A program made the translations under genes and the position numbers. A stretch of DNA of 64,000 nucleotides from Helicobacter monodelphidis. Its GTDB lineage: Bacteria > Campylobacterota > Campylobacteria > Campylobacterales > Helicobacteraceae. Below, one piece after another: positions 5,449 through 56,972 of the stretch. Position 1 is the stretch's first letter. Each line of letters opens with the position of its first letter. The DNA lies in NCBI RefSeq assembly GCF_003288845.1, contig NZ_NHYN01000002.1, positions 1-64,000 on the forward strand, read 5' to 3'. The notes under the pieces are model-generated. The model ran no database searches. It was not told where the DNA came from and saw only the letters and a list, made by a program, of their open reading frames with translations.

Positions 5449-6837
5449 ATGGTAACACTTATTTTATGTGGTGGCTCTGGGACGCGTCTATGGCCAATCA
5501 GTCGGGGACTAATGCCTAAACAGTTCCTCTCTCTTTTTGAGGGAGATTCTTTATTCCAAAAATGCATTAAACGCAATATGGTTCTAAGTGACGCATTTTT
5601 AATCGTTACTCACTCAGAATATTATTTTCTTGCTTCAGACCAACTCAAGAATATTTGTCAAGACAATCAGTTTTCTTTTATTCTTGAAGAAAATGCTAAA
5701 AACACTGCCATCGCTATTGCCTTGGGTGCACTCTCACTCCCTGCTAATGAAATTATTTTAGTTGCTCCATCAGACCACCTTATTAAGAATCAATATGCAT
5801 ACAATCAAGTCATCACACGAGCAAAAGAATTAGCACAAGAAGGCTATATTGTTACGTGTGGCGTTCCGGCTCTATATCCTGAAAGTGGTTTTGGCTACAT
5901 TCAAGCAAGGGGTGAAAATATTTTATCCTTCAAAGAAAAACCTGATTACGAAACAGCACAGAAATATATTGCACAAGGAGATTATTTTTGGAATAGTGGA
6001 TTGTTTTGTTTTCAAGCCCATACTTTTTTAGAGGAGTTAAAGCAACACGCACCGCATATTTATGAAACTGCCCAAAGTGCGATACAAAATTCTAGCAAAG
6101 AGTATAACTATACACGCATCAAGGAAGAATCTGTTTGTCATCTTGAACCTCAAAGCATTGATTATGCCTTAATTGAAAAAAGTCAAAAAATTAAAATGGT
6201 TGAATCACACATTGAATGGAGTGATATAGGAAGTTTTGATGCTTTATATCAAGAATTAAGTAAGGATTCAGCAGGTAATACACAAAGCAATGCCCTACTA
6301 CTTGATTCTACAAACAATCTAATTCTTACCTCCAAAAGACAAATAGCTCTTGTAGAAGTTGATAATTTAATGATAGTTGATACACATGATGCCTTGCTTG
6401 TAGTAAAAAGGGGTTCTGGACAACGTGTACGTGAGGTCATTGCAAAACTCAAAAAAGAAGAAAAAAACATTCATCACACTCATCTCTTAGTTTATCGCCC
6501 TTGGGGGACATATAAGGTCTTAAAGGAAGAAAAAACCTACAAAATTAAACGCATTATTGTAAATCCCGGCAAGAGTCTATCCCTACAAAAGCATTTTCAT
6601 CGTAGTGAACATTGGGTGGTTGTTAGTGGGAATGCACTTGTACGACTTAAAGACAAGGAAGTTACCTTATGTCCTAATGAGTCCATTTATATTCCTGTCG
6701 GGGAGATTCACCGCTTAAGCAATCCTGACAAAATACCTCTTGTTATTATTGAAGTGCAGATAGGAAGTTATTTGGGGGAAGATGATATTGTTCGACTTGA
6801 TGATGACTACCATAAAAAAGAGAGAAATAAGGAATAA
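5449..6837 (+). CDS. manC: Mannose-1-phosphate guanylyltransferase / mannose-6-phosphate isomerase
   Basis: This 462-residue enzyme makes GDP-mannose, the donor for mannose, fucose and related sugars in surface glycans. The N-terminal nucleotidyltransferase domain (about 1-285) shows the GGSGTRLWP signature at 8-16 followed by PKQF, plus FKEKPD and WNSGLF. The C-terminal cupin domain (about 345-455) has RPWGTYK and the metal-site-like LQKHFHRSEHWVVVSG typical of the type II isomerase half. It starts a cluster with three glycosyltransferase-type genes, the first beginning 1 bp after its stop, which suggests the product feeds that pathway. Confidence 0.9.
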   Translation: MVTLILCGGSGTRLWPISRGLMPKQFLSLFEGDSLFQKCIKRNMVLSDAFLIVTHSEYYFLASDQLKNICQDNQFSFILEENAKNTAIAIALGALSLPANEIILVAPSDHLIKNQYAYNQVITRAKELAQEGYIVTCGVPALYPESGFGYIQARGENILSFKEKPDYETAQKYIAQGDYFWNSGLFCFQAHTFLEELKQHAPHIYETAQSAIQNSSKEYNYTRIKEESVCHLEPQSIDYALIEKSQKIKMVESHIEWSDIGSFDALYQELSKDSAGNTQSNALLLDSTNNLILTSKRQIALVEVDNLMIVDTHDALLVVKRGSGQRVREVIAKLKKEEKNIHHTHLLVYRPWGTYKVLKEEKTYKIKRIIVNPGKSLSLQKHFHRSEHWVVVSGNALVRLKDKEVTLCPNESIYIPVGEIHRLSNPDKIPLVIIEVQIGSYLGEDDIVRLDDDYHKKERNKE

Positions 6838-6838
6838 A

Positions 6839-9817
6839 ATGAACGAAAGCCAACTAGAACGATCGCTATGCGTGGATTATGAAGATATTTTTGTAGCACG
6901 CATTTTTGCTAAGCAAAAAATAACCTATGTAGAAAGTTACCCAAAATACGCAAGGGAAGGTAGCCCAACCCATCTCTTATACACAATGGGTGCAGAGGGT
7001 ATTGTATTAACTCACTCTCAAGTCGATTCAAATTTTCGTATTTTGCGTTATTGGGAAAAACACTGCTATTCTCAAGAAGATTTTATACATATTCTAAAAG
7101 ATTATGATTACATTGATTTTTTACGCATTGATCCACAAACATCAGATGAGATGATTCTGTGGATTTTTGATGAAATAGTAAATAAGAAAAAAATCCGTAT
7201 TCTTGCCCTACCCCCTACAAGCCTCACACAATACAAAAATCTATTACAACAAAACTTTTTGCAAGGTTGCAGTTTTAGACATGGTATTTATTTCTGCCAC
7301 AAAGATTCTATAGAGTTACTAGAGTCTGTTTGTTCGTCGCCCTCTGAAGACAAGCCTTTCTCCACTCCATCAAAAGAAGCTCTAAAAGAAGAGATTTTAT
7401 GGCTTAAAAGACGTTGTGCAGAATTACACTCAACAGTGCATACGCCTACACCAATCATACATGATGAAACACCAAAAACAACTAAAAAAGGTATTATGCA
7501 AAAGCTGATTCACCATCTTTTTACTTCAAAAGTTAAAGATACATGGAAGGAATATCTAAGAGGTAGAGAACGATATGGATTAAAAAAAAGCCACAATCAA
7601 GAAAAAAGTAATGGACGAGTTCTAGTTATGTTCTGCTCCAATTCAATGCTAACAATAGAATATGTTCGTTCTTTTATTGCAAGTATGCCTGATAGAGAAA
7701 TTGTACTGATGAGTGATGACTTGATTATTCAAGAGGGGTTATTTTCTCAAGAAGTACAACCTGTCAAAAAAATCATTAATCATATGCGTTGGAATGATGA
7801 AATTTATTATATTCTTGTAAATCCTTTTGAGGGAGTTATGATTACACCTTATATTAAGCAATATGGTGGTGCCGTCTTGCTTTTTGATATTTTTGGCAAA
7901 CTAGATTCAACGCTTTTATCCAAAGAAAAGGAGGAGCTAGATTTCAGTGAAGTACTTGACCACCATTCTTACCCCCACCCTTTTCCCTTAACAAGGAATA
8001 TGATTCGCAATGAAGTTTACTATTCTTGTGGTATAGGACTTGGGGTGCAGTTACTTAAAAATCATGAACGATCGCGTTTAAGTTTTATTCGTACACTCCT
8101 TGAATATTCGGATTATGTCTTACTGCCCTCAAAGGAATCTATTACTCTTGTATTGCAACAATATCCACAATTTAAGCAAAAAATCCTCTTATGCAACTTA
8201 CTACCCCACCTCAACCCTCTTCCTGCAAGTGAAGTCATTGAAAGCGATTACATATTGCTAGCTGCCTCCTCCTACAATGAAATAAAGCGCTTCTTGCAAG
8301 CATGGAAAAAAAGTTCCCTATGGAATCAATATACTTTAGTGATTCAAAATCTAATCTACACAAAAGAGCAAGATAAGCTAGAAGAAGATATTGAACAAGG
8401 ATTTTTAGGGCATATTATTTTAACCCCCACCATTTTAGGTTTTTTAGAAAAAGCAAAAGCATGTTTTCTACTCAATCAACCAGGTTTTCAATTTAATACT
8501 TATTTTGCAATCAAAAGTCAAGGTATACTTGTTGCGACAATGAGTGGCGTACTTAAAGATTTTAAAGGAGAAAGCTTTATTCCTTTACATACCAATTTCT
8601 TAACAGAGGATATTTGGCGAACGCTTTTACATATCCAAAAAGGTCATGTCTCTCCTCAAAAAAAACTCTTAGGAGAATATCCCCTTTTTGAAGAACCACT
8701 TTGTTTTTCTTTATCTATGCCCGCCTTCAGAGATTCTCCATTACGTCCTAAAATTGCTTTTGAAGTCGCATCATTTTTAGAGCCTACTGGGGAAGTTAAA
8801 CGTTGGAGTGCCGGTATTCTAAATGCATTACTGACTCCTTCTTATGAAAAAAATTATGAAATAATCCCTGTTCATTTAAATTCTGAAAAAATCATACGTT
8901 CCTATTCTGAAATATTTTGGCTATTCTTAGGGGAAGATTTACACATTCAACAGGAGCATTTAGACTTATTCAAGGGTGATATTTTTCTAAATTTAGAACA
9001 TAACTTGGAGCGAATTTTATCTTTAGAGGTAGCTTATAAAGAATTACAGGATAGAGGTGTAGACATTTATTCTATGTTTTACACAATCCCTACAGAGGAT
9101 ACCTCTAAGTCTCTATCCATAAAAGATTCTTTAAGGGTTATTGCCTGTTATTCAAGTCGTTTATTCTGCCTTTCTTCTGCAAAAATGCAAATCTTTTTAG
9201 AATATTTAAAAAAAGAAAATATTGAGCGAAATGCAGCACTAAAAATTGAAGTTTTACAAATGTCTAATCTTATTCAAGAACAATTATTCACGCGTGGAAA
9301 CACCTACTTCAAAGAAGCAATACGAACAATTAGAAATAAAAAACTTGTCTTATATTTAGGTGATGAAGATCCTAAAATTTTAGAATATTTAAAGATTTTT
9401 GATGAATTATGGACAAAAGACGAGAATGTTAGTTTTTTACTCTTAAGCGATACAACGCAAAATGGCGAGGCAAAAAAACAGGTACAAAAGCACAAAGAGC
9501 TACATAAACGACTTTGGTGGCTTGAGGGTTATAGTAGCAAAGAACTGCAAACCCTCTTCCGACATTGCTCTGTCTGTATTATGTCAGACTCTATAATTGG
9601 GATTGCAATAGCAGAAGCATTGGGAGAATCCTTACAAATTATCATTAATGATTCTCCTCACAATCAAGAATTGCTAGGCAAAAATAGTATAGCCCCTCAA
9701 TCTCTAACAGCACAAACATTAAAAGAAATTCTTAATAAACCAAAAGAACAATCTACAGCACAACCACTTTCCTACACTCAAACCATACAAAACCTACTTC
9801 AAAGGAATAAATTATGA
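6839..9817 (+). CDS. Large multidomain glycosyltransferase-like protein
   Basis: This is a 992-residue protein with no signal peptide. A longer frame begins at 6782 inside manC, but the ATG at 6839, with an AAGGA site and 1 bp after the manC stop, is much better. The last 200 or so residues resemble a GT-B (GT4-like) C-terminal half: KKLVLYLGDEDP, LLLSDT, RLWWLEGY, LQTLFRHCSVCIMSD, and an IAEALGE segment. The segment KIAFEVASFLEPTGEVKRWSAG near residue 640 looks like the start of a second Rossmann half. The N-terminal 600 residues are unassigned and may hold another transferase or scaffold module. It overlaps the next gene by 4 bp. Glycan assembly is inferred from context. Confidence 0.6.
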   Translation: MNESQLERSLCVDYEDIFVARIFAKQKITYVESYPKYAREGSPTHLLYTMGAEGIVLTHSQVDSNFRILRYWEKHCYSQEDFIHILKDYDYIDFLRIDPQTSDEMILWIFDEIVNKKKIRILALPPTSLTQYKNLLQQNFLQGCSFRHGIYFCHKDSIELLESVCSSPSEDKPFSTPSKEALKEEILWLKRRCAELHSTVHTPTPIIHDETPKTTKKGIMQKLIHHLFTSKVKDTWKEYLRGRERYGLKKSHNQEKSNGRVLVMFCSNSMLTIEYVRSFIASMPDREIVLMSDDLIIQEGLFSQEVQPVKKIINHMRWNDEIYYILVNPFEGVMITPYIKQYGGAVLLFDIFGKLDSTLLSKEKEELDFSEVLDHHSYPHPFPLTRNMIRNEVYYSCGIGLGVQLLKNHERSRLSFIRTLLEYSDYVLLPSKESITLVLQQYPQFKQKILLCNLLPHLNPLPASEVIESDYILLAASSYNEIKRFLQAWKKSSLWNQYTLVIQNLIYTKEQDKLEEDIEQGFLGHIILTPTILGFLEKAKACFLLNQPGFQFNTYFAIKSQGILVATMSGVLKDFKGESFIPLHTNFLTEDIWRTLLHIQKGHVSPQKKLLGEYPLFEEPLCFSLSMPAFRDSPLRPKIAFEVASFLEPTGEVKRWSAGILNALLTPSYEKNYEIIPVHLNSEKIIRSYSEIFWLFLGEDLHIQQEHLDLFKGDIFLNLEHNLERILSLEVAYKELQDRGVDIYSMFYTIPTEDTSKSLSIKDSLRVIACYSSRLFCLSSAKMQIFLEYLKKENIERNAALKIEVLQMSNLIQEQLFTRGNTYFKEAIRTIRNKKLVLYLGDEDPKILEYLKIFDELWTKDENVSFLLLSDTTQNGEAKKQVQKHKELHKRLWWLEGYSSKELQTLFRHCSVCIMSDSIIGIAIAEALGESLQIIINDSPHNQELLGKNSIAPQSLTAQTLKEILNKPKEQSTAQPLSYTQTIQNLLQRNKL

Positions 9818-11349
9818 TTGAAAAATCAATAAGCACAATTCTATTTGACTGTACAACTCTACTCTACTGGAATCGCTCACCAGTCGGTATTGTACGTGCA
9901 GAATTAGAAATAGCTGAATATCTTTTACAAACTGATTTTAGAATAAAATATGTCCAATTCAACAAACAAAGAGATGAAATTTCTGAAATTTCTGCAGAAA
10001 ACATACAGGAAGTTTGTGCACATTTAAGAGGCACACAAGAAAATAACCATTCTTCGTTTAAAATTATATCACCCATTAAAAATCACCTCCATTCCTTATC
10101 TAATCGCCTAGAAAAATATGGAAAAAATATTGAAAAAATATTGAAAAAATACGCTAATAAAGAATTAATAAAAAGTCAGAAAGAAAAAATTCAAGAAGAA
10201 TTAGAAGCAATTAAAATACCGCCTATTACGCGTTTAACACGTAATTTATTTGATAAAGAAACACTCTTTATTAGTGGAGGATTAGATTGGGATTTATCTA
10301 ATTACTCCTTACTTTATCTCTTAAAAAAGGAAATTAACTTTAAATTTATTGGAATTTTTTATGATGTCATCATTCTTAGAAATCCTGAGTGGGCAGCTTC
10401 AACTGATCTGTTAAAACGTTTTAATCTCTTTTTCTATTATCTTGCGACAATGAGTGACGGACTTGTAACAATTTCTGAATTCTCTAAATCAGAATTCTTA
10501 AAACTCGCAAAGGACTACCATATCACGCCTACAAGCCAAATTAATGTTTTACATCTAGGAAGTTCACCACTACAAAAACAAGAAGAATCCAATCAGCCAC
10601 ACACAAAACAAGAATCTAATAGCCAAGCACAATCAACTCAACTGTTACCCACCATTGTTGAATCACCAGAAATCTACCTTAAAATAGACTCTAAAACTGG
10701 AGAATTTATTTCATCAGACAGCCCTGATATAGAACCTCAAAAACAAACCCCCTCTACAAATCCGCTGATTGCACGTTTTGCTAAACGTCCGCATTCTGAT
10801 TTTTATGCACTTTATGTCAGCACTCTTGAGATTCGCAAAAATCATCAAATTCTGCTTGAAGCATGGAAAATTTTACAGCAACACAACAATATTCGTATAC
10901 CTGACCTTGTTTTTGTCGGTATGGAAGGTTGGGGTGTTGAAAAACTCTTAAAGGAAATACAACAAGAACAATTTAAAAATAAAGTTTTTTGGTATTCAGA
11001 TGTAACTGATGAAGAATTGAAGGATCTTTATCAAAAGACTGCCTTTACTCTATTTCCCTCTTTTGCAGAGGGATGGGGGCTTGGAGCAGCTGAATCACTC
11101 TCTTATGGTAAAGTCGCAATCATTTCTAATGCACCCGCACTTGCCGAAGCAACACAAAACCTGATGCCTATCATCGATGCACACAATGCATATGAGTGGG
11201 CAAATATAGTGAGTACCTTCAGCAATCAACCTGCTAAATTGCAATCTTTAGAAAAAAAAATTAAAGAACAATTCAAACAGAGAAGATGGCGAGATTTTGC
11301 AGAAGAGTGTATTAATTTTGCAATTCATGCCCAAAAGGAACAAAGATGA
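9814..11349 (+). CDS. GT4-family glycosyltransferase
   Basis: This 511-residue protein has a GT-B fold typical of GT4 enzymes. GLVTISEFSKSEFL closes the N-terminal half. YALYVSTLEIRKNHQILLEAW, LVFVGMEGWG and LFPSFAEGWGLGAAESLSYG form the nucleotide-sugar-binding C-terminal half; the second Glu of the E-x7-E type motif lies in AAESL. Residues 60-150 and 245-310 are Lys/Gln-rich insertions not expected in the core fold. It overlaps both neighbours by 4 bp (ATGA), so it is translationally coupled. With manC upstream, a mannosyltransferase role is reasonable but unproven. Confidence 0.8.
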   Translation: MIEKSISTILFDCTTLLYWNRSPVGIVRAELEIAEYLLQTDFRIKYVQFNKQRDEISEISAENIQEVCAHLRGTQENNHSSFKIISPIKNHLHSLSNRLEKYGKNIEKILKKYANKELIKSQKEKIQEELEAIKIPPITRLTRNLFDKETLFISGGLDWDLSNYSLLYLLKKEINFKFIGIFYDVIILRNPEWAASTDLLKRFNLFFYYLATMSDGLVTISEFSKSEFLKLAKDYHITPTSQINVLHLGSSPLQKQEESNQPHTKQESNSQAQSTQLLPTIVESPEIYLKIDSKTGEFISSDSPDIEPQKQTPSTNPLIARFAKRPHSDFYALYVSTLEIRKNHQILLEAWKILQQHNNIRIPDLVFVGMEGWGVEKLLKEIQQEQFKNKVFWYSDVTDEELKDLYQKTAFTLFPSFAEGWGLGAAESLSYGKVAIISNAPALAEATQNLMPIIDAHNAYEWANIVSTFSNQPAKLQSLEKKIKEQFKQRRWRDFAEECINFAIHAQKEQR

Positions 11350-12605
11350 ATATCTTGCTTTTAAGCACTTATCCAACCATTTTACCAAGACATGGAGGAC
11401 AAATCCGTGTCCAACATATTGCCCATTATTTACGCCTTCAAGGGCATAAAGTACGTATTGTTTCCCTATGCGAACCCACACATAGCCAGTATGAAATTAA
11501 TGATATAAAAATAAGTAAAAATGATTTAGCAAAGTCTCCTTACTCTTCTTTTGCTTATGATTATGCAACCTCCTTGCTTTGCACACAAGAACCCTATTTT
11601 TCACGTCTAAAAAGTCGTATCATTGATTTTAATCCGCAAGTCATTTTTATCGAACAATCTTGGCTATATCCCCTTTATCAAGCCCTATATACTTCTCTTG
11701 AAGTAAACAAACGTCCAATTTTAGTATATTCTTCACACAATATTGAATATGAAGCAAAGCAAGAATTACTAGAATGCTTAGATAAAGCTGATGAAACATT
11801 AATTTCTGCAATTCGACATCAAGAAGAGCAACTATGTTTAAATGCAGATTATGTCATTGCATGCACACAATCTGATGCAGATAAGCTCCAAAAAATGGGA
11901 GCAAAAGATGTGAGCATTTGTCCTAATGGGGTTGATCGCCATCTGACTGATTTAGATTCTATGAAAACTTTAAAACAAAAGCTTAATGGCTTTCAATTTG
12001 CATTATTTGTCGGCTCTGCCCATATCCCAAATGCATTAGGTTTTTGGAATATGTTATCTGGAAATCTTGCATTTCTAAAACCTAACCAAAAGATTATTGT
12101 TGCGGGTAGTGTTTCTTATATTCTGGAACAATACATGCCCAAAGAAGCAGATATGGCGTTGCTTATTAACAAAGAAAAGTTAATTATTTTGGGTGAAGTC
12201 AGTGAAATACTCTTACAATGCCTACTTAAACAAGCTTCCGCCATTCTTTTACCTATTACAAATGGCGGTGGTTCAAATCTTAAAACTGCAGAGGCTATTG
12301 TCGCAAATCGCCATGTTATCGCGACAAATACAGCGATTCGTGGTTTTGAATTTGCTAAACAATTAAGCAACTTTTCAGTTGTCAAAACACAAGAAGAGTT
12401 TATAAAAGCAATTCAACAAGCATTTACACAAAAAATTAAGACTATCAGTAAAGATGAACAAAAACAACGCGATACACTTTATTGGGGAATTACCCTCAAA
12501 CCTTTAGGAGAATTAGTCGGACGTATTGCTGTAAAATTAGGTGAATTTGCACTACCGCCTGTTGACAAAATGTCAGATTCAGCAGATACACAAGATAAAA
12601 AATAA
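11346..12605 (+). CDS. GT4-family glycosyltransferase
   Basis: This 419-residue protein begins with a typical acceptor-side Rossmann domain (MNILLLSTYPT, then RHGGQIRVQHIAHYLRLQGHKV). It continues with YSSHNIEYEAKQ, DYVIACTQSDADKL and CPNGVD, and a C-terminal half with ALFVGSAHIPN and LLPITNGGGSNLKTAEAIVANRHVIAT. This matches glycosyltransferases that add sugars to lipid-linked or LPS glycans on the cytoplasmic face. It is the last gene of the cluster; no clear terminator was found directly after it. Donor and acceptor cannot be read from sequence. Confidence 0.8.
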   Translation: MNILLLSTYPTILPRHGGQIRVQHIAHYLRLQGHKVRIVSLCEPTHSQYEINDIKISKNDLAKSPYSSFAYDYATSLLCTQEPYFSRLKSRIIDFNPQVIFIEQSWLYPLYQALYTSLEVNKRPILVYSSHNIEYEAKQELLECLDKADETLISAIRHQEEQLCLNADYVIACTQSDADKLQKMGAKDVSICPNGVDRHLTDLDSMKTLKQKLNGFQFALFVGSAHIPNALGFWNMLSGNLAFLKPNQKIIVAGSVSYILEQYMPKEADMALLINKEKLIILGEVSEILLQCLLKQASAILLPITNGGGSNLKTAEAIVANRHVIATNTAIRGFEFAKQLSNFSVVKTQEEFIKAIQQAFTQKIKTISKDEQKQRDTLYWGITLKPLGELVGRIAVKLGEFALPPVDKMSDSADTQDKK

Positions 12606-12693
12606 TCCCCTCTCCCCAAGAAAATACTGCTGGTTCAGCAAATCATCAATATTATTATTTGCTGGAGAAAATCAAGATTCTACCCTTTTTTCA

Positions 12694-46513: not shown

Positions 46514-46765
46514 ATGGAAGTCAAACAGGCACGCAAACAATTAGACGGAAAAATAGACAAAATCACAAGCGAACAAATCTTGGAGCAGTTACAGGAAAAT
46601 GGACAGAAAATATTATATCTTGATAAAGAAAATTCAGCTAAAGATATTAAAAAGTTTTGCGATATTTTTTCAAAAAAAGGCTTTAGTGTGCACTATCACG
46701 AAATTTATTATGGCTTAGATAGTGGAGATTTTCTCTACGAAGTTCACCTTATTCAAAATATATAA
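46514..46765 (+). CDS. HP0268-like small protein
   Basis: This 83-residue protein resembles HP0268 of H. pylori, a small alpha/beta protein reported to have nuclease activity. Shared features are [20 protein letters not shown] and [16 protein letters not shown], ending in YEVHLIQNI. It starts at the ATG at 46514; a longer frame from 46439 has no ribosome site. As in H. pylori (from memory), it lies directly before miaB, 28 bp upstream. Function is not settled. Confidence 0.75.
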
Positions 46766-46793
46766 TTATTTTCACAAGATGACAGGACAATCA

Positions 46794-48119
46794 ATGAACC
46801 AACAAAAAGAGAGTGCATTTCAGAAGAAAGTGTTTATAGAAACAATGGGTTGTGCAATGAATGTTAAGGACACAGAACATATGCTTGCCGAGCTAGAATC
46901 TAAAGAAGGATATAAGCTTACCCAAAATGCAAAAGAAGCGGATTTAATTCTTATCAATACCTGCAGTGTACGCGAAAAGCCGGAACGAAAACTTTTCTCA
47001 GAAATTGGACAATACGACAAACTCAAAAAAAAGGGTGCAAAAATTGGTGTTTGTGGTTGCACTGCCAGTCATTTAGGTCAAGAAATTCTTACTAAAAGTA
47101 AAGCGGTTAGCTTTGTTTTAGGTGCAAGAAATGTCTCAAAAATTACTTCCATCATTCATCAAGAAGGTGCTGTGGAAGTTGATACGGATTATGATGATAG
47201 TCGCTATGTTTTTGCTTCAAATTCTTCACACTCAACACTCAAGGCAATGGTTAATATCTCCATTGGTTGCGATAAACAATGCACTTATTGTATTGTACCA
47301 CATACAAGAGGGGAAGAAATCTCCATTCCTGCTGATATTATCTTAAAAGAAGTGCAAAAGGCGGTAGATGATGGTGCAATAGAGGTGCTGTTGTTAGGGC
47401 AAAATGTTAATAACTACGGACGTCGTTTTAGCACAGAACATACACCGATGAATTTTACGCAATTATTGCAAGAAATATCAAAAATTGATGGTTTAAAACG
47501 TATTCGCTTTACTTCACCTCACCCGCTACAAATGGATAATGCTTTTTTAGAAGAATTTGCGAACAATCCTAAAATCTGCAAAAGCATCCATATCCCTCTG
47601 CAAAGTGGTTCGGATAAGATTCTTAAATTAATGAAAAGGGGTTATACACAAGATTGGTATTTACAAAGAATTCGTAAATTAAGGGAGCTTATTCCTTCCG
47701 TTAGCATTGGCACAGACATTATCGTTGCATTTCCTTATGAGGAAGAAGCCGATTTTTTGGAGACAATGAGAGTATTAGAAGAGGTGCGTTTTGATACAAT
47801 GTATAGCTTTATTTACTCTCCACGTCCACATACAGAAGCAAGTCGCTGGGGTATTCAAGTTAATGCAGAAGAAGCCCTTAATCGCTTAATACGACTACAA
47901 AACCGTCATAAGGAGATTTTGGAACAAAATAATGCACAAGAAATTGGTACAGTATGTGAAGTTTTATGGGAGAATATCCGTGAAGACGGATTCTTAGAAG
48001 GTAAAAGCGATCATGCAAAATTGGTTCGTGCACCTTTTAAAAATGGGCTAATTGGGAAAGTGGGCTATGCACAAATCCTTGATGCTCGCCGTGCATACTT
48101 AATAGGAGAAGCAATATAA
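46794..48119 (+). CDS. miaB: tRNA-2-methylthio-N6-dimethylallyladenosine synthase
   Basis: MiaB adds the methylthio group to i6A37 of tRNAs reading UNN codons. It has the N-terminal cluster cysteines C20, C57 and C89, and the radical SAM motif C158-x3-C162-x2-C165 (CDKQCTYC), followed by VPHTRGEE. Later segments are [28 protein letters not shown] and [11 protein letters not shown]; a TRAM domain forms the last 65 residues. Longer frames start at 46722 and 46779, but the ATG at 46794 has AGGAC 6 bp upstream, giving 441 residues. Its stop region is shared with the next gene. Confidence 0.95.
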
Positions 48120-48787
48120 AAAAGAAAATTTCAAGATTCTTCACACTATTGTTCGTGCCACCATTGGGGTATTTGCTGGTTAGGCTACTCTTTTTGCTGT
48201 GTAAAAAAGAAATATTAATCCATAAGGAGGTCTTTGAACTTGTCGATAAGCCTTTTATTGCCGCTTTTTGGCATGGGGAAATGCTGTTTCAACCCATTTT
48301 ATACCAACACATACGTCAAAAACCTAAGGGCTATGTGATTAGCAGTCTACACTTTGATGGGGAAGTTGTCGTGCGTTTGATTAAATTTTTTAACTTAGAA
48401 ACAATTCGTGGATCTACCTCAAGAGGTAGTGTACGTGTTTTCTTAAAAGCACTTAGAGCACTTAGAGAAGGAAAAGATATTGCTATTACCCCTGATGGTC
48501 CAACAGGCCCTTATCACAAAATCTCAAATGGCATTGTTGCTCTTTCACAAAAAAGTAATGTGCCGATTGTGATATTTAGATTCTTTGCACAACATTCTTG
48601 GCAGATGAAAAGTTGGGATCGCTTTTTAATCCCTAAACCCTTCTCTTCCTTTTCGTTAATCACATCAAAACCAATTTACATACAAGAATTAAGCGAAGAA
48701 GAAGCAACAATTTTTATTAAGCAAGAAATGGAATATCCATTTGAAACTTATTATAAATCTTATCAAGAATCTTATCATCAAACATAG
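48116..48787 (+). CDS. DUF374 lysophospholipid acyltransferase family protein
   Basis: This protein belongs to the DUF374 acyltransferases, related to lipid A acyltransferases: [15 protein letters not shown] holds the catalytic His region, with [26 protein letters not shown] and [15 protein letters not shown] membrane-anchor helix lies at the N-terminus. The only standard starts are a TTG at 48149 and GTG at 48155, neither with a ribosome site. An ATA at 48116, 7 bp after AGGAG and overlapping the miaB stop, gives a typical Lys-rich start (KKKISRFF). Ancestral ATGA changed to ATAA would explain this. I used 48116; TTG at 48149 is the fallback. Confidence 0.78.
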
Positions 48788-48825: not shown

Positions 48826-49797
48826 ATGGGTTTATTAAGAAGTTTATTTGCGACAGCAATTGCTAGTGTACACCTTGACTTAAGGGATTGTCGCATTAAA
48901 TTTGAAGTATTGAAAGGTGGGCAAGTTGTCTTTGAAGAAATCAAAACACTCCGTTCTTCACCTAATGAACTACCTATTGAAGCCGCACACTACCTTTCGC
49001 GTATGCGGAGACGATACCCTTTTACTTATATCGCTACCATCAGCCAAACTATCTATCAAGGTGCATTCTCTGCTATAGGGGATAGTGAATGTTCGCGTTT
49101 TGGTGTAAATCCAGCTGGAGTTAGGCGCGTGATTGTAGGTAAGCAATGGACAGCTTTTATTGATAAAGGTGCAATCATTGAAGAAAGAAATAATTTTTCT
49201 AAAGCCCCATCACTGGATTTCCTATACTCTCCTTTTCTGATTCTTTATAATTCCATTCGCTCAAGGCTTGATAATTCCAAAAAACTTTATCTCTTACAAC
49301 AACAATCAACCATTACAATGATGATTATGGATACTTCGAAACTTTATTATGGTTGTATTCAACCATTAGAGGCTGTTAATTCAGCGGGACTTGAAGATGA
49401 GCTGGAAGATAATTCGATAGAAGCTATACAAGAAGAAGGCTTAGAAGAAATTGGAGAAATTGATAATCTTGATGAAATTGAAGGACCACAAGAATTTCAA
49501 GACACCTCACAGGATATGGAAATAAACTCCTTAGAGCAAGGCAAAAAAAGTCTTGAAGATTTTTCACGTGCTGTGAGTATTGTCAATAGCATCAAACAAT
49601 CTTTAAATGAGTTTTATAATAATGATATGTACGAAAGTGATTTTGTCAGTGAAATTGTTTGTGTCGATCCACTACAAATGAGTCAAAAAGCTATTAGCTA
49701 CATTAAAACCAATCTCATGATAGACCTTAGCATAATTTCTATTGATATGTGTGATGTCATTTCAGAAATAGTGCGTAGAGATTTAGCGGAGGTGTAA
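48826..49797 (+). CDS. Unrecognised protein, PilM/GspL-like position
   Basis: This 323-residue soluble protein starts with strands (VHLDLRDCRIKFEVLKGGQVVFEE) that resemble the first hairpin of an actin-like fold as in PilM or GspL. A second region is VGKQWTAFIDKGAIIEE. Residues 188-225 are strongly acidic (Glu/Asp-rich insert), after which a helical part runs to the end. No ATP motif can be confirmed. The ATG has a GAAGG site. It is followed within 4 bp by two single-helix membrane proteins, which together have the layout of PilM-PilN-PilO. This is inference from topology and order, not from family motifs. Confidence 0.55.
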   Translation: MGLLRSLFATAIASVHLDLRDCRIKFEVLKGGQVVFEEIKTLRSSPNELPIEAAHYLSRMRRRYPFTYIATISQTIYQGAFSAIGDSECSRFGVNPAGVRRVIVGKQWTAFIDKGAIIEERNNFSKAPSLDFLYSPFLILYNSIRSRLDNSKKLYLLQQQSTITMMIMDTSKLYYGCIQPLEAVNSAGLEDELEDNSIEAIQEEGLEEIGEIDNLDEIEGPQEFQDTSQDMEINSLEQGKKSLEDFSRAVSIVNSIKQSLNEFYNNDMYESDFVSEIVCVDPLQMSQKAISYIKTNLMIDLSIISIDMCDVISEIVRRDLAEV

Positions 49798-49800
49798 AGT

Positions 49801-50328
49801 ATGTATAGTTTTATACGCCCAGAAAAGAAAAGTATATTCAGCAAATTAACAAAAATTTGGGGTTTTTATTGCATTTTGTCTGTCGGTATTGTGTCAGCTT
49901 ATATTGCGTGGATTGAATCAGAAAAAATTTATATGCAATATCGCATTGAAGAAAGTGTTGCACAAAAACAAACCTATCAAGACCAGATTGCACAAGTGCA
50001 GGCACAACTAAAAGGTTCAAACTCTGATGTTCTCTTTGCTAAACGTATTGATACACAAAACAATAAGGTGGCTAAAAGCATTTCTAATCTTTTTGATTTA
50101 ACACCTGACCAAATCACTTTAAGCAACATTGAAATGCATAAAGATATGTTAGTTCTTAAGGGTGTTACGCCCTCAAAAGAAATTTATAGCTTTTTGCTTG
50201 AAGCTCCACTAAGAGCAATTTTTCACGAGAGCCGTGTCGATTTCTACCCTCTATCAAGCGGGTGGTTTAATTTTGTTTCCGTAAGCAAAATGATTATTCT
50301 TGATATTGATGAGGAGGAAAAACAATGA
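49801..50328 (+). CDS. Membrane protein with PilN-like topology
   Basis: This 175-residue protein has a short basic cytoplasmic part (MYSFIRPEKKSIFSKLTK), one membrane helix (about 21-39), a periplasmic coiled coil (about 42-75, EKIYMQYRIEESVAQKQTYQDQIAQ) and a small alpha/beta domain (about 90-170). That is the layout of PilN and the periplasmic part of GspL. It starts 4 bp after the upstream gene and overlaps the downstream one by 4 bp. No catalytic motif is visible. Related proteins exist in other Helicobacter, as I recall, without an assigned function. Confidence 0.6.
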   Translation: MYSFIRPEKKSIFSKLTKIWGFYCILSVGIVSAYIAWIESEKIYMQYRIEESVAQKQTYQDQIAQVQAQLKGSNSDVLFAKRIDTQNNKVAKSISNLFDLTPDQITLSNIEMHKDMLVLKGVTPSKEIYSFLLEAPLRAIFHESRVDFYPLSSGWFNFVSVSKMIILDIDEEEKQ

Positions 50329-50927
50329 ATAGCTGGAAATCTATAGATTGGATATCAAATACAGCTTGGCTACTTTTTTATAGCGTTGGAATTCTGCTTT
50401 TTCTTTCTTTGTTTTGGTGGGATTACATCAATCAATATCGCACTATCAATGCAACTTATCGACGCGAAGAAGTCTTGGTGCAACAATTCTATCAAGAATA
50501 CGCAAAAATTACTGCACAAAAAAAGGAATATGACCAACAAAATATGCAATTCATTGCAAAAATGAATAACTCTCTCTCAACATCTTCCTTGCAATCGCTA
50601 ATGGGAAATTCTAAGGGCGTGAAAATTCAGTCAAAAGCTGCTAAGCAAAATGCTGACATCCTTGAATCTTCATTTAGCGTTTCTGGTACAGTCGCTTCAA
50701 CAAAACAATTTCGAGATTTAATTAAATCTCTACAAAATAGTAATTATGCCTTAGAGATTAGCTTTCCTATTAAATTGCAATCTGTCAAGGGGGGATTAAA
50801 ATATACCATCGGTATCAAAAGCTTTACAAAGAAGAATGCAACCCCAATGAGTGCGAATCCAGATAAAGCTGTAACACAAGGTGGAATAACCATTCCAGCC
50901 TCCGCTATCCCAAATTCTACACAATAA
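50325..50927 (+). CDS. Membrane protein with PilO-like topology
   Basis: This 200-residue protein has a short cytoplasmic N-terminus, one membrane helix (about 13-29), a coiled coil (about 35-75, rich in Gln and Glu), and a periplasmic alpha/beta domain (about 95-175: SSFSVSGTVASTKQFRDLIKSLQNSNYALEIS). The domain has the pattern of the PilO/GspM ferredoxin-like fold, in which such SGxxxxxxxFxxLLxxL strands are common. It is translationally coupled to the PilN-like gene and 9 bp upstream of the dynamin-like pair. Assignment is by topology only. Confidence 0.6.
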   Translation: MNSWKSIDWISNTAWLLFYSVGILLFLSLFWWDYINQYRTINATYRREEVLVQQFYQEYAKITAQKKEYDQQNMQFIAKMNNSLSTSSLQSLMGNSKGVKIQSKAAKQNADILESSFSVSGTVASTKQFRDLIKSLQNSNYALEISFPIKLQSVKGGLKYTIGIKSFTKKNATPMSANPDKAVTQGGITIPASAIPNSTQ

Positions 50928-50936
50928 GGGGCATTA

Positions 50937-53276
50937 ATGAATGAGAATTTTCAAAGAATTATTGCTGATTTTTTTACGCTATTACATCATCATGAAACAC
51001 CGGAATACAATAAAGAGTGGTTGCATTCCCTACAACAAGAAGGGCTTGATTCCTATGCCATTTTACTTGTATGCAATAGACGCAATCAAGATATATTCTG
51101 TTCCTTAGAGGTAATCCACCATCTATGCGAAAAATTTAACACAACACCATTACCTGAAAATATCCGCACTCTACAGTGTTGCATTCTCCATATTCTTGCG
51201 ACAAAACCATCACTAAAAGTTGTTGAAGAATTAACCAAAAGGTTAATATCTCTTAGAGAGTGCGGAGTTTTAGAATATGATGAAGAACAAAAAATGCGTT
51301 CTATACTCCACCAACTCCGCCCTAAACCCAAACAGATAGAATTAAACACTCCGCAAAAAAATGAAAATTTATTTAAAGAAAATATTGCAAAAATTCATCA
51401 ATTATTATTGCAAAACACTAGAATTTTAGAAACTTATCACAGCAAACAAAAAGCTTTTGACATTCTTGAATCATTGCAAAATCAACATTTTTCTATCGGC
51501 GTTACAGGCGTAATGTCTTCTGGAAAAAGTACACTATTGAATGCAATTTTGCAAAAAGAGGTATTGGGTACTTCAGTCATTCCAGAGACAGCAAATTTAA
51601 CTATCCTAAAGTATGGAGAACAAGAAAGCGGAAAGATTTATTTTTGGAATAAAGCAGAATGGGATAATATCCGAAAATCTGCGACATTTAATGACGGGAT
51701 TGCTGCTTTCGTCCGGGAGAGTGAAGAAAAGTTTAAAGATCAATTGATGCTTGAAATTACAGAACAAGGCAAGGTAATGGATATCACCATCGATTCTTTG
51801 CAAACTTATACTTCCGCTAAAAATCCTCATAAATATTGCAATCTTGTTAAAAGTGTTGAGATTTTTACACCCTTAGAATTCTTAAAAAATGGTGTTGAGC
51901 TTGTTGATACGCCAGGTCTTGACGACCCACTAACACAAAGAGAAGAAATCACAAAAACTTATCTCACGCGTTGTGATGTGATTGTTCATTTAATGAATGC
52001 GGCACAAAGTGCAACACAGAAGGATATTGATTTTATCGTCGATGCACTAACCAACAAAAATGTATCGCGGTTTTTGGTTGTCTTAACGCATGTCGACACA
52101 ATCAGTCATTCAGATTTACAAGCTGTCCTAGAGTACACACAAACAAGCATTCAGAATCGTTTACTTGAATTTCGTTCCACAGAAGGATTTGACCAAATTA
52201 TTGAAAGGATCGAATTTATTCCAACGGCTGCTTATATGGCATTATTACATCGCACAAATCGTGCACAAGAGGCATTAGAAAAAGGTTACACTTTAGAGGA
52301 TAGTGGGATTTTAAAACTAGAATCCATACTTAGAGAATTACTATTTGGTTCTGAATCTGAAAAAAGTCGCACCCTTCTGTATGGAAGTTGTCGCAAGATG
52401 ATTGACTTATTTTCTTTGATTCAATCTGAAATTGAATTGAAAAAAAGTCTTATTCAAGAAGGTGCAGAAAGTTTGCAAAAACGTTTAAAAGCCCATCATG
52501 AACATGAACAAAATGCACAGTCTTTGGAGAAAAAAGTAAAACAATCCATATCAGAAAGCACAACAACCTTCATGCAACAATTTGAACAGCTAGGAAAAGC
52601 TGCAATATTTAAACTCAAAGAATATGAACAACTTTTAAAAAATCGCTTAATTGATGAAGTTAATTATGCAAATGCCCAAAACCACTCACTACAAGCCAAT
52701 CATATCGAAAAAAACCTCATTATTGGTATTCAAGATGGCGTAACAGAAGCAAGACGAGATTTTTGCTATAAGTTAGAGAGATCGCTACATTTCTTTTTTC
52801 AAGAAATTCGTGAACTTTTTTATGCATTTGAAGAATTGGATAATCGTTTCATTGATGAGAAAATGGCTGATACACAAATATTATTACTCAAAAAATTTAA
52901 AGAACGTCCATTTATTGATCAAACCTCTATAATCCCACACTCTGCAGCACAACTTGCCCTAAAAAAACAAGGATCTGAATTAAAAAAAGAACTTGACCAG
53001 TTATTTATACTTGGCTTTGACGCTTTAAGCGAACGGACAGAAACTTGGATAAAAATATTAAATGATGAAATTCTTGAAGAATGCACACAAACTTTTGGAA
53101 ATTTATATTCATTTGTCCATGAAAAAATCCGTAATGAAAAGGAAATTTTAGAGAATGCTTTAGAACAAAGAACAAATACAGAGACACAGGACAAAGAAAA
53201 AGATCTTCTACTGGAAGAGGAAGCACTTTTTGATATTTTAAATACATTTGAATCCATTTTAAAAGAGGTTTCATGA
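50937..53276 (+). CDS. Dynamin-like GTPase 1
   Basis: This 779-residue protein is a bacterial dynamin-like GTPase. After a helical N-terminal region (1-170), the GTPase domain has the P-loop GVMSSGKS (191-198), the G2 threonine region (SVIPETANLT), G3 DTPG (324-327) and G4 THVD (384-387). A long helical stalk with coiled-coil segments (about 470-600) and a further helical region follow; the C-terminus is Glu-rich. In Campylobacter jejuni a homologous pair (DLP1/DLP2) forms a heterotetramer that can tether membranes. It overlaps the second GTPase gene by 4 bp, as expected for such a pair. Confidence 0.85.
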   Translation: MNENFQRIIADFFTLLHHHETPEYNKEWLHSLQQEGLDSYAILLVCNRRNQDIFCSLEVIHHLCEKFNTTPLPENIRTLQCCILHILATKPSLKVVEELTKRLISLRECGVLEYDEEQKMRSILHQLRPKPKQIELNTPQKNENLFKENIAKIHQLLLQNTRILETYHSKQKAFDILESLQNQHFSIGVTGVMSSGKSTLLNAILQKEVLGTSVIPETANLTILKYGEQESGKIYFWNKAEWDNIRKSATFNDGIAAFVRESEEKFKDQLMLEITEQGKVMDITIDSLQTYTSAKNPHKYCNLVKSVEIFTPLEFLKNGVELVDTPGLDDPLTQREEITKTYLTRCDVIVHLMNAAQSATQKDIDFIVDALTNKNVSRFLVVLTHVDTISHSDLQAVLEYTQTSIQNRLLEFRSTEGFDQIIERIEFIPTAAYMALLHRTNRAQEALEKGYTLEDSGILKLESILRELLFGSESEKSRTLLYGSCRKMIDLFSLIQSEIELKKSLIQEGAESLQKRLKAHHEHEQNAQSLEKKVKQSISESTTTFMQQFEQLGKAAIFKLKEYEQLLKNRLIDEVNYANAQNHSLQANHIEKNLIIGIQDGVTEARRDFCYKLERSLHFFFQEIRELFYAFEELDNRFIDEKMADTQILLLKKFKERPFIDQTSIIPHSAAQLALKKQGSELKKELDQLFILGFDALSERTETWIKILNDEILEECTQTFGNLYSFVHEKIRNEKEILENALEQRTNTETQDKEKDLLLEEEALFDILNTFESILKEVS

Positions 53277-55282
53277 CATTACTACAACAATTTACAACGC
53301 AATACATTCAAAAAAGTGAAGCACAAAAACAACAGAATACAATGGGTGGTGGCATTATTGGGGTAGCTGAAATTCTTCTTGATGAAAAGTTTTATCCATC
53401 AGACAATCTCAAAGAAGAATTTAAGAGGTTACACAAAAAAGCGAAAGAACCTATGCTTATTGCCGTTGTTGGGCAATTTTCCGCTGGAAAATCAACTTTT
53501 CTTAATGCCATCCTGAAAGGCGAGATTCTCCCCACAGGTGTAACTCCCATAACTTCAAAAGTCTGTCGCCTAAGCTATGACTATGATTTTAACCTAGAAG
53601 TTATTTATCAAAATGCTAATAGAGAATTACGAAGAGTAGAAGACATTTTTTCATTAGAAGATGAACCCTTAAAAATAATTCAGGAATTCCACCTCAAAGC
53701 CCCCATTCCAATATTGAAAGAAATTAGTTTTTTAGATACTCCTGGCTTTAACTCCCAAAGACAAAGCGATACAGATACAACAAATCGTATCTTGGAAAAA
53801 GTTGATGGCATCATTTGGCTAACTTTAATTGATAATGCAGGCAAACAAAGCGAACTAGAAATTTTGGAAAAATTTATGGGCCGCTATGCAAATAAGAGTT
53901 TATGCGTTTTAAATCAAAAGGATCGCCTTTCTTCTGAAGAAGAAATCCAAACCGCCATCAATTATGTTAAAGAACGTTTTAAGCAATTTTTTGCAGATGT
54001 TATTGCCATATCCTCTAAAGTAGCACTACAATCACAACAAAATCAAGAATCTCAATGCATACAAGAATCCCTCAAACATTTAGCACAACGTATTCAGCAG
54101 CTTAAAGCTAATGAATACTCACAAGAAAAGATAAAAGAACTCTGTATAGAGCAAGAAAGAGAAGTTGAAAAATTCCAAAAAATTGATACAGCACAGATTC
54201 AAGAACTTTACAAAAAATCTAATTTTGAATCTGTTATTACATTCATTCAAGAACAAATCCGTCCACAGGCTGAAGCCACAAAAGAATTCACAATTAGGCG
54301 GGAGATTCAAGGCATCATTGATATTTTTGAAGAGCAATATGAACATATTCAAGAAGCACATCAAGAATTACAAAATATTTTGCAACATCACCAAGAGGAG
54401 ATTAATAATCTCTTAAAGCAACTAAAGGGTCGCTATAAAGAGGAACTTTCTGCCTTGGGGCAAGAATTTCATTATCATCTAGAAAGCATTACAGAAGTTT
54501 TATACACACACTTATTGCAAGGTTTGAAGAGTGTTTACACGGAAAAATCCGGAATATTGGGCAATAAAATCGTGAAAGAAGAGTTCAATATTGCTTATTT
54601 TGATAAAGATCGCATTAATGAAGAACTATTTTTAGGAGATTCTAAGAATATTAAATTCTTTAAAAAGTTTCCTATCAAACTTAAAAAAGCATCAATCCAT
54701 ATCCAAGAAGATTTTTTACAAACTTATAAAAAATTTGAAAAAGAGTTAAAACTTTGGCAAGAAAGTTGTGAGTTTCTTTATAAGCGACATCATTTAGCGT
54801 CTGATGAAAGTTATAACCAATTACGTCATTTTGCATTAAAAATCTATGAGGAGATTGCTCAAGATTGCTTAGCACTCATCTTGGAAATGAATGCTTATAT
54901 CCAAACGGAAATAGAAGGTATCAATACACTTTTTAATGGTATCCATCTAAAGCTAACCGAACTTGTCATTTTAACAATTGAAAAACGTATGGAAGAATCT
55001 TTAACCCTCCATCTCTCTCAACCAAAAAGCTTCAAAATATACATTCCTACTTTTGTTGAAATCAAAACAATCGTGGAAGAATCTTTTAATATTGCTAGTT
55101 TTTTGCCCCGCATTGAGGGTGAAGAAACAACACTCGTACGCGTATACCAAAAAATGTTTATCCGCTATAAACAATTAATGGAAACAAAAATGCAAATCTT
55201 AAAGTCCAGGACTGCTCCAACCCTAGAAAGATTAAATGAAGTAAGGAACTTAAGAGAAAGAATTACCTTAACACATTTATAG
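53273..55282 (+). CDS. Dynamin-like GTPase 2
   Basis: This 669-residue protein is the partner of the preceding GTPase. It has the P-loop GQFSAGKS (67-74), the G2 segment LPTGVTPITS, G3 DTPG (155-158) and G4 NQKD (214-217), all intact, so GTP hydrolysis is likely. The rest is helical: a hinge and stalk with Gln/Glu/Lys heptads at about 250-420 and a trunk with KKFPIKLKKASI-type basic stretches that may touch membrane (about 440-480). Membrane remodelling or tethering is known of the family; the cargo and site are not known here. The operon has no clear terminator before the MCP promoter. Confidence 0.87.
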   Translation: MTLLQQFTTQYIQKSEAQKQQNTMGGGIIGVAEILLDEKFYPSDNLKEEFKRLHKKAKEPMLIAVVGQFSAGKSTFLNAILKGEILPTGVTPITSKVCRLSYDYDFNLEVIYQNANRELRRVEDIFSLEDEPLKIIQEFHLKAPIPILKEISFLDTPGFNSQRQSDTDTTNRILEKVDGIIWLTLIDNAGKQSELEILEKFMGRYANKSLCVLNQKDRLSSEEEIQTAINYVKERFKQFFADVIAISSKVALQSQQNQESQCIQESLKHLAQRIQQLKANEYSQEKIKELCIEQEREVEKFQKIDTAQIQELYKKSNFESVITFIQEQIRPQAEATKEFTIRREIQGIIDIFEEQYEHIQEAHQELQNILQHHQEEINNLLKQLKGRYKEELSALGQEFHYHLESITEVLYTHLLQGLKSVYTEKSGILGNKIVKEEFNIAYFDKDRINEELFLGDSKNIKFFKKFPIKLKKASIHIQEDFLQTYKKFEKELKLWQESCEFLYKRHHLASDESYNQLRHFALKIYEEIAQDCLALILEMNAYIQTEIEGINTLFNGIHLKLTELVILTIEKRMEESLTLHLSQPKSFKIYIPTFVEIKTIVEESFNIASFLPRIEGEETTLVRVYQKMFIRYKQLMETKMQILKSRTAPTLERLNEVRNLRERITLTHL

Positions 55283-55340: not shown

Positions 55341-56972
55341 ATGAATTTGTCTATGAATCAAAAACTTTATTTAGGTTTTGGAATCCTGATCGCCATTATG
55401 ATTTTTGTTGCAACAACAGGAATGCTTAAAGTGGGTAATATCAATCAGGGTTTAACAACAATCACTGAACTCAATGCTCTCAAGCAACGTTACGCTATTA
55501 ATTTTCGTGGTAGTGTTCATGATCGGTCCATCGCTATTCGGGATGTAATTTTATTTGAAAAAACAAGAATGGATTCCTTACTTCAAGAAATTCAAAGGTT
55601 AAGGGATATGTATTCTGAAGCTGCCAAAAATTTACAAGTTATTTTCAGTAACGATCAGTTGGTAAATGCAGAAGAAAAAGCCTTGCTTGCAGAAATTCAA
55701 CGCATTGAGAAAGAAACGGTAGCAAGCGTCCAACAAATCATTAGCTTAAAAAAACAAAATCAAGATGATGAGGCAAAACAGATTCTTTTAACAACGGTTG
55801 CCGGACAATTTGTGAATTGGTTAGCCGCTATCAACCGATTGATTGATTATGAAGAGAGCCAAAATCAAGTCATCACACAAGAAGTTAAAGATATTGCACA
55901 AAATTTTAGCTATTTAATGATTGTTTTAACCATCATTATGGCATGCATTGGCATTAGCATTGCTTTTGCCTTAGGAAGATTCCTTAAGCATTCTTTAGGT
56001 GGAGAACCACAGGAACTCAAACGCATTGTCAATGTAATTGCAAAGGGCGACCTCACGCAACAGGTAACTTCCGCATATGAGGGAAGCACTCTTAGTGCTG
56101 TTATATTAATGCAAGCTAAAATTTCTGAAATTATTAAAACAATTGTTGGCGTATCCAAAACATTACTTGACAAAACAAACATTGTTTCGGATGCTTCCTT
56201 ACTATCCCAAAATGCTGCAAATCGTCAGGAAGATATGACAACCTCTCTTTCAGAAGATATCAAACAAATTCAAGTGAACATAGCAGAGGTAACAAAAATT
56301 GCACAACTCACTAGCGATAACTCAACGCAAAGTGCTGAATTAAGTGAAAGGGGGAGAGAGGCAGTTAAAAAAACTGCTGAAAATCTTGAAAGCGTTACTC
56401 AATCTGCTAAAGATTCCGCCTCAAAAATTCAATCTCTCTACCAACATGCACAAACAATTGGTAATAGTGCTGAATTAATTCAAGAAATTACCGACCAAAC
56501 AAATTTGCTTGCCTTAAACGCAGCTATTGAGGCAGCAAGAGCAGGAGAATCAGGGAGAGGTTTTGCTGTTGTTGCGGATGAAATTCGCAAACTTGCAGAA
56601 AGAACTGGGGTTGCCACACAAGAAATTAATCATATTATTGAGCTTATTCAAACTGAAACAAAAGAAGCAGTTTCAAGTGTAGAAGGAATGGTGAGAGAAA
56701 TTGATAATAGTTACGAGGTCGCGAATGAAGCCTCTTCAGTGCTAGATGAGATTTATCATCAAGCAACAGACTCTTTAGATAAAATACAACAAGTTGCATC
56801 GCACTCCGAAAACCAAAATAACGAAATTAACAGGTTATCACAGGAGATTAATGAAATCGCAAATATAGCTCAGGAGACTTCAGATATTTTAGAAAAAAGT
56901 CGAGATGAAATCAAACTGCTTGAAGATGCGTCGCATCAGCTAGAAAAAGTTATTAAAGAATTTAAAATATAA
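55341..56972 (+). CDS. Methyl-accepting chemotaxis protein
   Basis: This 543-residue chemoreceptor has a membrane helix at about 10-29, a periplasmic domain of 160 residues that looks like a four-helix bundle ([25 protein letters not shown]), a second membrane helix at about 191-212, a HAMP domain ([23 protein letters not shown]), and a long coiled coil with the kinase-contact tip [19 protein letters not shown]. The C-terminus ([12 protein letters not shown]) lacks a CheR-binding pentapeptide. Ligand is unknown. Its 3' end overlaps the convergent minus-strand gene by 11 bp. Confidence 0.93.

Follow-up and report, generated by a model that had tools for sequence, protein, structure and literature searches.

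The genes analysed here resemble two described systems. In Campylobacter jejuni, FcpM, FcpN and FcpO are encoded by the three genes after miaB (CJJ81176_0481-0479), make up the flagellar-motor cage and are recovered with one another in pull-downs (PMC11870540, PMC11237671). The PilM, PilN and PilO proteins of Helicobacter pylori, of which PilO is HPG27_252, also form a motor cage (PMC11870540, PMC11237671). The published fcpMNO operon has a conserved upstream miaB (PMC11870540), and fusions of the trio genes have been published for Arcobacter (M-N-O) and Nitratiruptor (M-N). The second system is the pair of dynamin-like proteins (DLPs) Cj-DLP1 and Cj-DLP2, which form a cytosolic 2:2 tetramer with GTP hydrolysis and membrane tethering activity. 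The knockout showed no division defect, and a repair role was speculated (PMC6104087). Here, we report how both gene sets are arranged in a window of 64,000 nucleotides, which is part of contig C54 of a draft Helicobacter genome of 1.99 Mb. The identities, folds and distribution of the genes and a conserved adjacency limited to one genus come from the present analysis. What is said of DLP structure and activity (PMC6104087) and of localisation to the cage of C. jejuni and H. pylori motors (PMC11870540, PMC11237671) comes from the literature and concerns other organisms. The locus is very probably the fcpMNO flagellar cage operon and a C. jejuni-type DLP pair, joined as one transcription unit in a single genus.

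Five open reading frames on the forward strand span positions 48826-55282 of the window, with junctions of +3, -4, +9 and -4 bp (ORF listing). Upstream on the same strand lie miaB (46722..48119), with UPF0004 and Radical_SAM matches and a true start codon that may be further 3', and a DUF374 gene (48149..48787; PF04028, E 3e-23) directly preceding fcpM. Both are conserved upstream neighbours of fcpMNO, in a position common to most relatives. Downstream of DLP2, after 58 bp, follows a chemoreceptor gene named from its sequence (55341-56972). A ribosome-binding-like AAGGGG for DLP1 overlaps the stop codon of fcpO, which is consistent with translational coupling into DLP1. A promoter and terminator scan gave nothing usable, with signals no higher than in shuffles. 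Profile searches of contig C54 produced no secretin, T2SSF or N-methyl pilin match, and a single T2SSE match was weak and below cut-off (C54:20676, E 4e-4). The original prediction had described five tightly packed genes with two 4-bp overlaps and no pilin, secretin or pilus ATPase in the window. The ORF coordinates bear out the former, and the sub-cut-off T2SSE match is all that the contig offers against the latter.

Sequence searches of Pfam, NCBIfam and PDB profiles gave no credible match for FcpM or FcpO, hence folds were required for their identification. FcpM (48826..49797, forward strand, 323 aa) is strand-rich and has no transmembrane (TM) segment according to its AF2 model and hydropathy. 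The model was built with a 21-sequence family alignment as input (pLDDT 82.8), and its Foldseek matches in the PDB fall in the actin-like ATPase superfamily. Rank 1 is an actin-fold protein of unknown function. Ranks 2-11 are all PilM, PilM-PilN or pilus-machine structures (P. aeruginosa and T. thermophilus PilM; E 9e-10 to 7e-8), with TM-scores of the PilM matches of 0.42-0.51 on the query. FcpM is thereby predicted to be a cytoplasmic protein with a PilM-type actin fold. A profile search of the genome contigs with FcpM alone found nothing, and the FcpN alignment succeeded instead.

FcpO (50325..50927, forward strand, 200 aa) is predicted to be bitopic, with a hydrophobic helix at about residues 13-31. 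In the AF2 model (pLDDT 84.8), a single long helix at the N-terminus is followed by an alpha/beta domain. The top two Foldseek matches in the PDB are both PilO of P. aeruginosa, namely 5uvr (E 8e-4, TM-score on the target 0.69) and 2rjz (E 4e-3). With 5uvr as the sole match at E <= 0.001, and that of modest strength, the model points to a PilO-type fold.

FcpN (49801..50328, forward strand, 175 aa) has one TM segment at about residues 20-38 (hydropathy), which fits a bitopic, PilN-like protein. The family alignment (A1) shows a conserved N-terminal segment, YSFIxPxxK, and a conserved domain, LIPDQIT...KGxTPSKE...GWxxFVS. Among Pfam families, PilN attracts the most matches from members of A1 (6/21), but the best E, 0.005, does not reach the cut-off. 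PilN binds PilM through a short cytoplasmic N-terminal motif, and PilM:PilN structures are among the Foldseek matches described above. The YSFIxPxxK start probably does the job of this PilM-binding motif.

The last two genes encode large dynamin-like GTPases. DLP1 (50937..53276, forward strand, 779 aa) matches 5owv_A of the PDB (phmmer, E 4e-71) and DLP2 (53273..55282, forward strand, 669 aa) matches 5owv_C (E 5e-49). Pfam Dynamin_N is found in both (E 2e-32 and 4e-26, respectively). The G1, G3 and G4 motifs are intact in DLP1 (GVMSSGKS, DTPG and THVD) and in DLP2 (GQFSAGKS, DTPG and NQKD). Judged from these matches, the two proteins are orthologues of Cj-DLP1 (Cj0411) and Cj-DLP2 (Cj0412). 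Much of what the original prediction had read from the letters thus agrees with the models and searches. The product of gene 1 is rich in strands and free of TM segments, those of genes 2 and 3 begin with a single hydrophobic helix near the N-terminus, and the guess of PilMNO folds is matched by PilM for gene 1 and PilO for gene 3 (Foldseek) and, weakly, by Pfam PilN for the family of gene 2. The call of a dynamin-like pair is upheld by the Dynamin_N matches, the GTPase motifs and the orthology to 5OWV.

Gene order, folds and co-distribution with flagella identify the trio as the known flagellar cage operon FcpMNO. Most of the sampled Helicobacteraceae genera keep the order miaB-DUF374-M-N-O, which is also found in Campylobacter. 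FcpM was found in 116/119 genomes of the family Helicobacteraceae, and two of the three exceptions are only about 60% complete. Across 249 near-complete Campylobacterota genomes, in which unlisted genomes were counted by subtraction, the FcpN profile matched 216 and fliF was present in 222, including the window's own genome. Both occurred in 213 genomes and neither in 24, with FcpN only in 3 and fliF only in 9 (Fisher p 6e-23, a value that ignores the kinship of genomes). Family f6 accounts for eight of the nine genomes with fliF only. In three other genomes of this family (G200, G257 and G261; loci L166, L168 and L169), DUF374 is followed by one gene for a protein of 521-533 aa that runs from an M through an N to an O segment, with one strong TM segment at about 285, and that the FcpN profile barely detects. 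Family f8 (L163, L164) has an FcpM-N fusion and a separate FcpO. Both arrangements correspond to the fusions published for Arcobacter and Nitratiruptor. We also considered the weak FcpN matches of f6 as pilus PilMN fusions and rejected this, since the loci show M-N-O fusions after DUF374. Two individual genomes depart from the common arrangement. The g7 genome G099 (99% complete) has fliF with fcpM and fcpN undetected, which may reflect a cage lost in nature or a gap in the assembly. At L077 (G005, genus g6), fcpM-fcpN has no recognisable fcpO beside fcpN.

The DLP pair shows a different distribution. A DLP1 of the protein family seen in the window is absent from all 32 g7 genomes (H. cetorum/H. 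pylori type), nearly all of which keep the trio, and this argues against an obligatory functional bond between the two gene sets. Some genomes without fliF retain DLPs (G136, G161). An explanation of the pair through the flagellar sheath fits poorly, since C. jejuni has the pair but no sheath and the g7 type has a sheath but not the pair. Many g7 genomes (e.g., G073, G081, G118) contain only short or interrupted dynamin-like fragments, a few with in-frame stops, which suggests other or decaying dynamin-like genes. In the genomes of genus g6 that were sampled (L087, L088, L098, L103), DLP2 is not beside DLP1.

The adjacency of the two gene sets could be assessed in 65 genomes of the family in which FcpM and a full-length-type DLP1 were both located. 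Three of these have the sets adjacent (G000, G020 and G008), all from the window's genus, with FcpM and DLP1 2.1-3.4 kb apart by match coordinates and within one unbroken gene array. In 14 further genomes FcpM and DLP1 share a contig at a distance of 30 kb to 1.7 Mb, and in the remainder they lie on different contigs, which in draft genomes is compatible with adjacency. Outside the genus, none of the loci read directly had DLP1 behind fcpO, and in G007 of the nearest (sister) genus the trio and DLP1 are 365 kb apart. Two further genomes of the window's genus, about 60% complete, yielded neither FcpM nor DLP1. Within the genus, the junction between fcpO and DLP1 measures 9, 5 and 9 bp in the three members, at identities of only 37-44% for FcpO and 43-44% for DLP1. 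A junction of 5-9 bp kept despite such divergence of DLP1 indicates that the joining is old in the genus and a real operon. The recurrence of the five-gene order in two divergent species besides the window likewise makes the array more than chance. In Campylobacter g22 (L154, L155, L156), the pair is close, at about 5 kb downstream of fcpO, but not adjacent. The spacer there holds genes resembling frdCAB and two others; we take the former to be frdCAB by their size and the known C. jejuni order. In other g22 genomes the frdCAB-like block moves together with the DLP pair rather than the trio. On these grounds, with the sets apart in 62/65 family genomes, we rejected adjacency as a general rule of the phylum. 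The trio thus stands without adjacent GTPase genes in nearly all relatives that have both, an outcome that the original prediction had named as telling against its proposal.

The retention of the tight junction over deep divergence could reflect selection for joint function. The DLP pair might then serve the flagellar motor in this genus, where it would be co-expressed with the cage and act on the inner membrane surrounding the large motor, in repair, remodelling or disk/cage insertion. The junction in three species, the AAGGGG over the fcpO stop in the window and the g22 pair downstream of fcpO would all fit such a role. We nevertheless consider it unlikely, because the sets are apart in nearly all family genomes, including G007, and the g7 genomes without DLP1 nearly always have the trio. 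In addition, G136 and G161 keep DLPs without fliF, and the Campylobacter DLPs travel with the frdCAB-like block rather than with fcpMNO. A variant in which the pair was recruited to the motor in this lineage, is co-translated with the cage and there carries out remodelling or repair of the surrounding inner membrane seems slightly less likely again. If true, it would provide the first flagellum-dedicated bacterial dynamin. We read the joining of trio and DLP pair as an operon capture giving co-expression, with a functional bond possible but unproven.

The trio might instead be the PilMNO/GspLM inner-membrane platform of a type IV pilus or T2SS-type machine of the same genome. Such machinery does exist, contrary to the original prediction's premise that Helicobacter generally lacks type IV pili, which fails for this genome. 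On contig C45 (L152, 18001-31820), positions 6182-12690 encode two single-TM proteins of 436 aa and 311 aa, a secretin, a GspE-type ATPase and GspF; this may be a Cts-type competence system. Contig C65 (L161, 128001-147000) carries at 6794-10242 a gene for a PilT-like ATPase (358 aa) surrounded by four or more ORFs for pilin-like or pseudopilin-like proteins, and the short proteins have pilin-like N-termini. This cluster is probably the filament part belonging with the C45 locus. However, the C45 locus has its own candidates for the platform, as the 436 aa and 311 aa proteins occupy the M/N and O positions upstream of the secretin and the latter is weakly matched by the FcpO profile. A separate pilus or T2SS locus with its own M/N-like and O-like proteins was another finding that the original prediction had set against itself. 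A secretin was found in 86/119 Helicobacteraceae genomes and in none of the 32 g7 genomes. In 32 genomes of the family the trio occurs without any secretin; it therefore cannot belong to a pilus there and is independent of pilus or T2SS. Given also that the trio tracks fliF and that its counterparts in C. jejuni and H. pylori are components of the flagellar cage (PMC11870540, PMC11237671), a role as the pilus or T2SS platform is very improbable. Equally remote is the original prediction of trio and DLP pair as a new kind of envelope machine, which the tight five-gene array in one genus might have suggested but which finds no support, as each half, FcpMNO cage operon and Cj-DLP1/DLP2 pair, is complete, separately distributed and separately characterised (PMC11870540; PMC6104087).

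As a captured operon of two known gene sets, the locus would work as follows. FcpMNO would constitute the inner-membrane part of the Campylobacterota flagellar-motor cage, as a PilMNO set co-opted from type IV pili. The actin-fold protein FcpM would sit at the cytoplasmic face, and the short conserved cytoplasmic tail of FcpN would probably dock onto it, as PilN does on PilM. The coiled-coil and alpha/beta domains of the single-pass proteins FcpN and FcpO would build the periplasmic cage units around the stators. DLP1 and DLP2 would form a heterotetrameric GTPase of the cytosol with membrane-tethering activity and a presumed role in membrane repair. In a genus-level lineage of Helicobacter, the DLP pair would have come to lie immediately behind fcpO and would have kept this place within a single transcription unit. 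We infer that trio and pair are co-transcribed and that the DLPs are not physically coupled to the cage. No earlier report of the tight placement of trio and DLP pair, seen here in one Helicobacter genus, was found in the literature searched. As far as this literature goes, both halves were already described and only the genus-limited operon is new. Fold and distribution together identified both gene sets in a Helicobacter lineage that is uncultured, and the results agree with the view in the literature that the flagellar cage is built from PilMNO proteins of pilus origin. The cage operon with its dynamin pair provides a small natural case for probing bacterial dynamins at the flagellar motor.

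Among known systems, the cage genes of C. jejuni and H. pylori resemble the window trio in gene order, upstream miaB, the folds of PilM and PilO, N and O proteins with a single TM segment, and a distribution tracking flagella. They differ in that no dynamin pair directly follows fcpO as it does in the window, and their cage location is known, whereas that of the window trio is predicted. PilM, PilN and PilO of type IV pili share the M and O folds, the topology and the gene order. In contrast to these, the trio locus has no pilin, secretin, PilP or pilus ATPase gene, and the trio also occurs in genomes without any secretin. The N-terminal motif of FcpN is different (YSFIxPxxK), and FcpM and FcpO lack a Pfam-level match. 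The T2SS/type IV pilus-type locus on C45 likewise encodes M/N-like and O-like single-TM proteins, but unlike the trio it is complete with secretin, ATPase and GspF and is unlinked to the window. Cj-DLP1 and Cj-DLP2 (Cj0411/Cj0412; PDB 5OWV/5OXF) agree with the window pair in gene order, similar lengths and intact GTPase motifs. The operon partner of the pair is an HcpA-like gene in C. jejuni (PMC6104087), whereas in the window it is fcpMNO.
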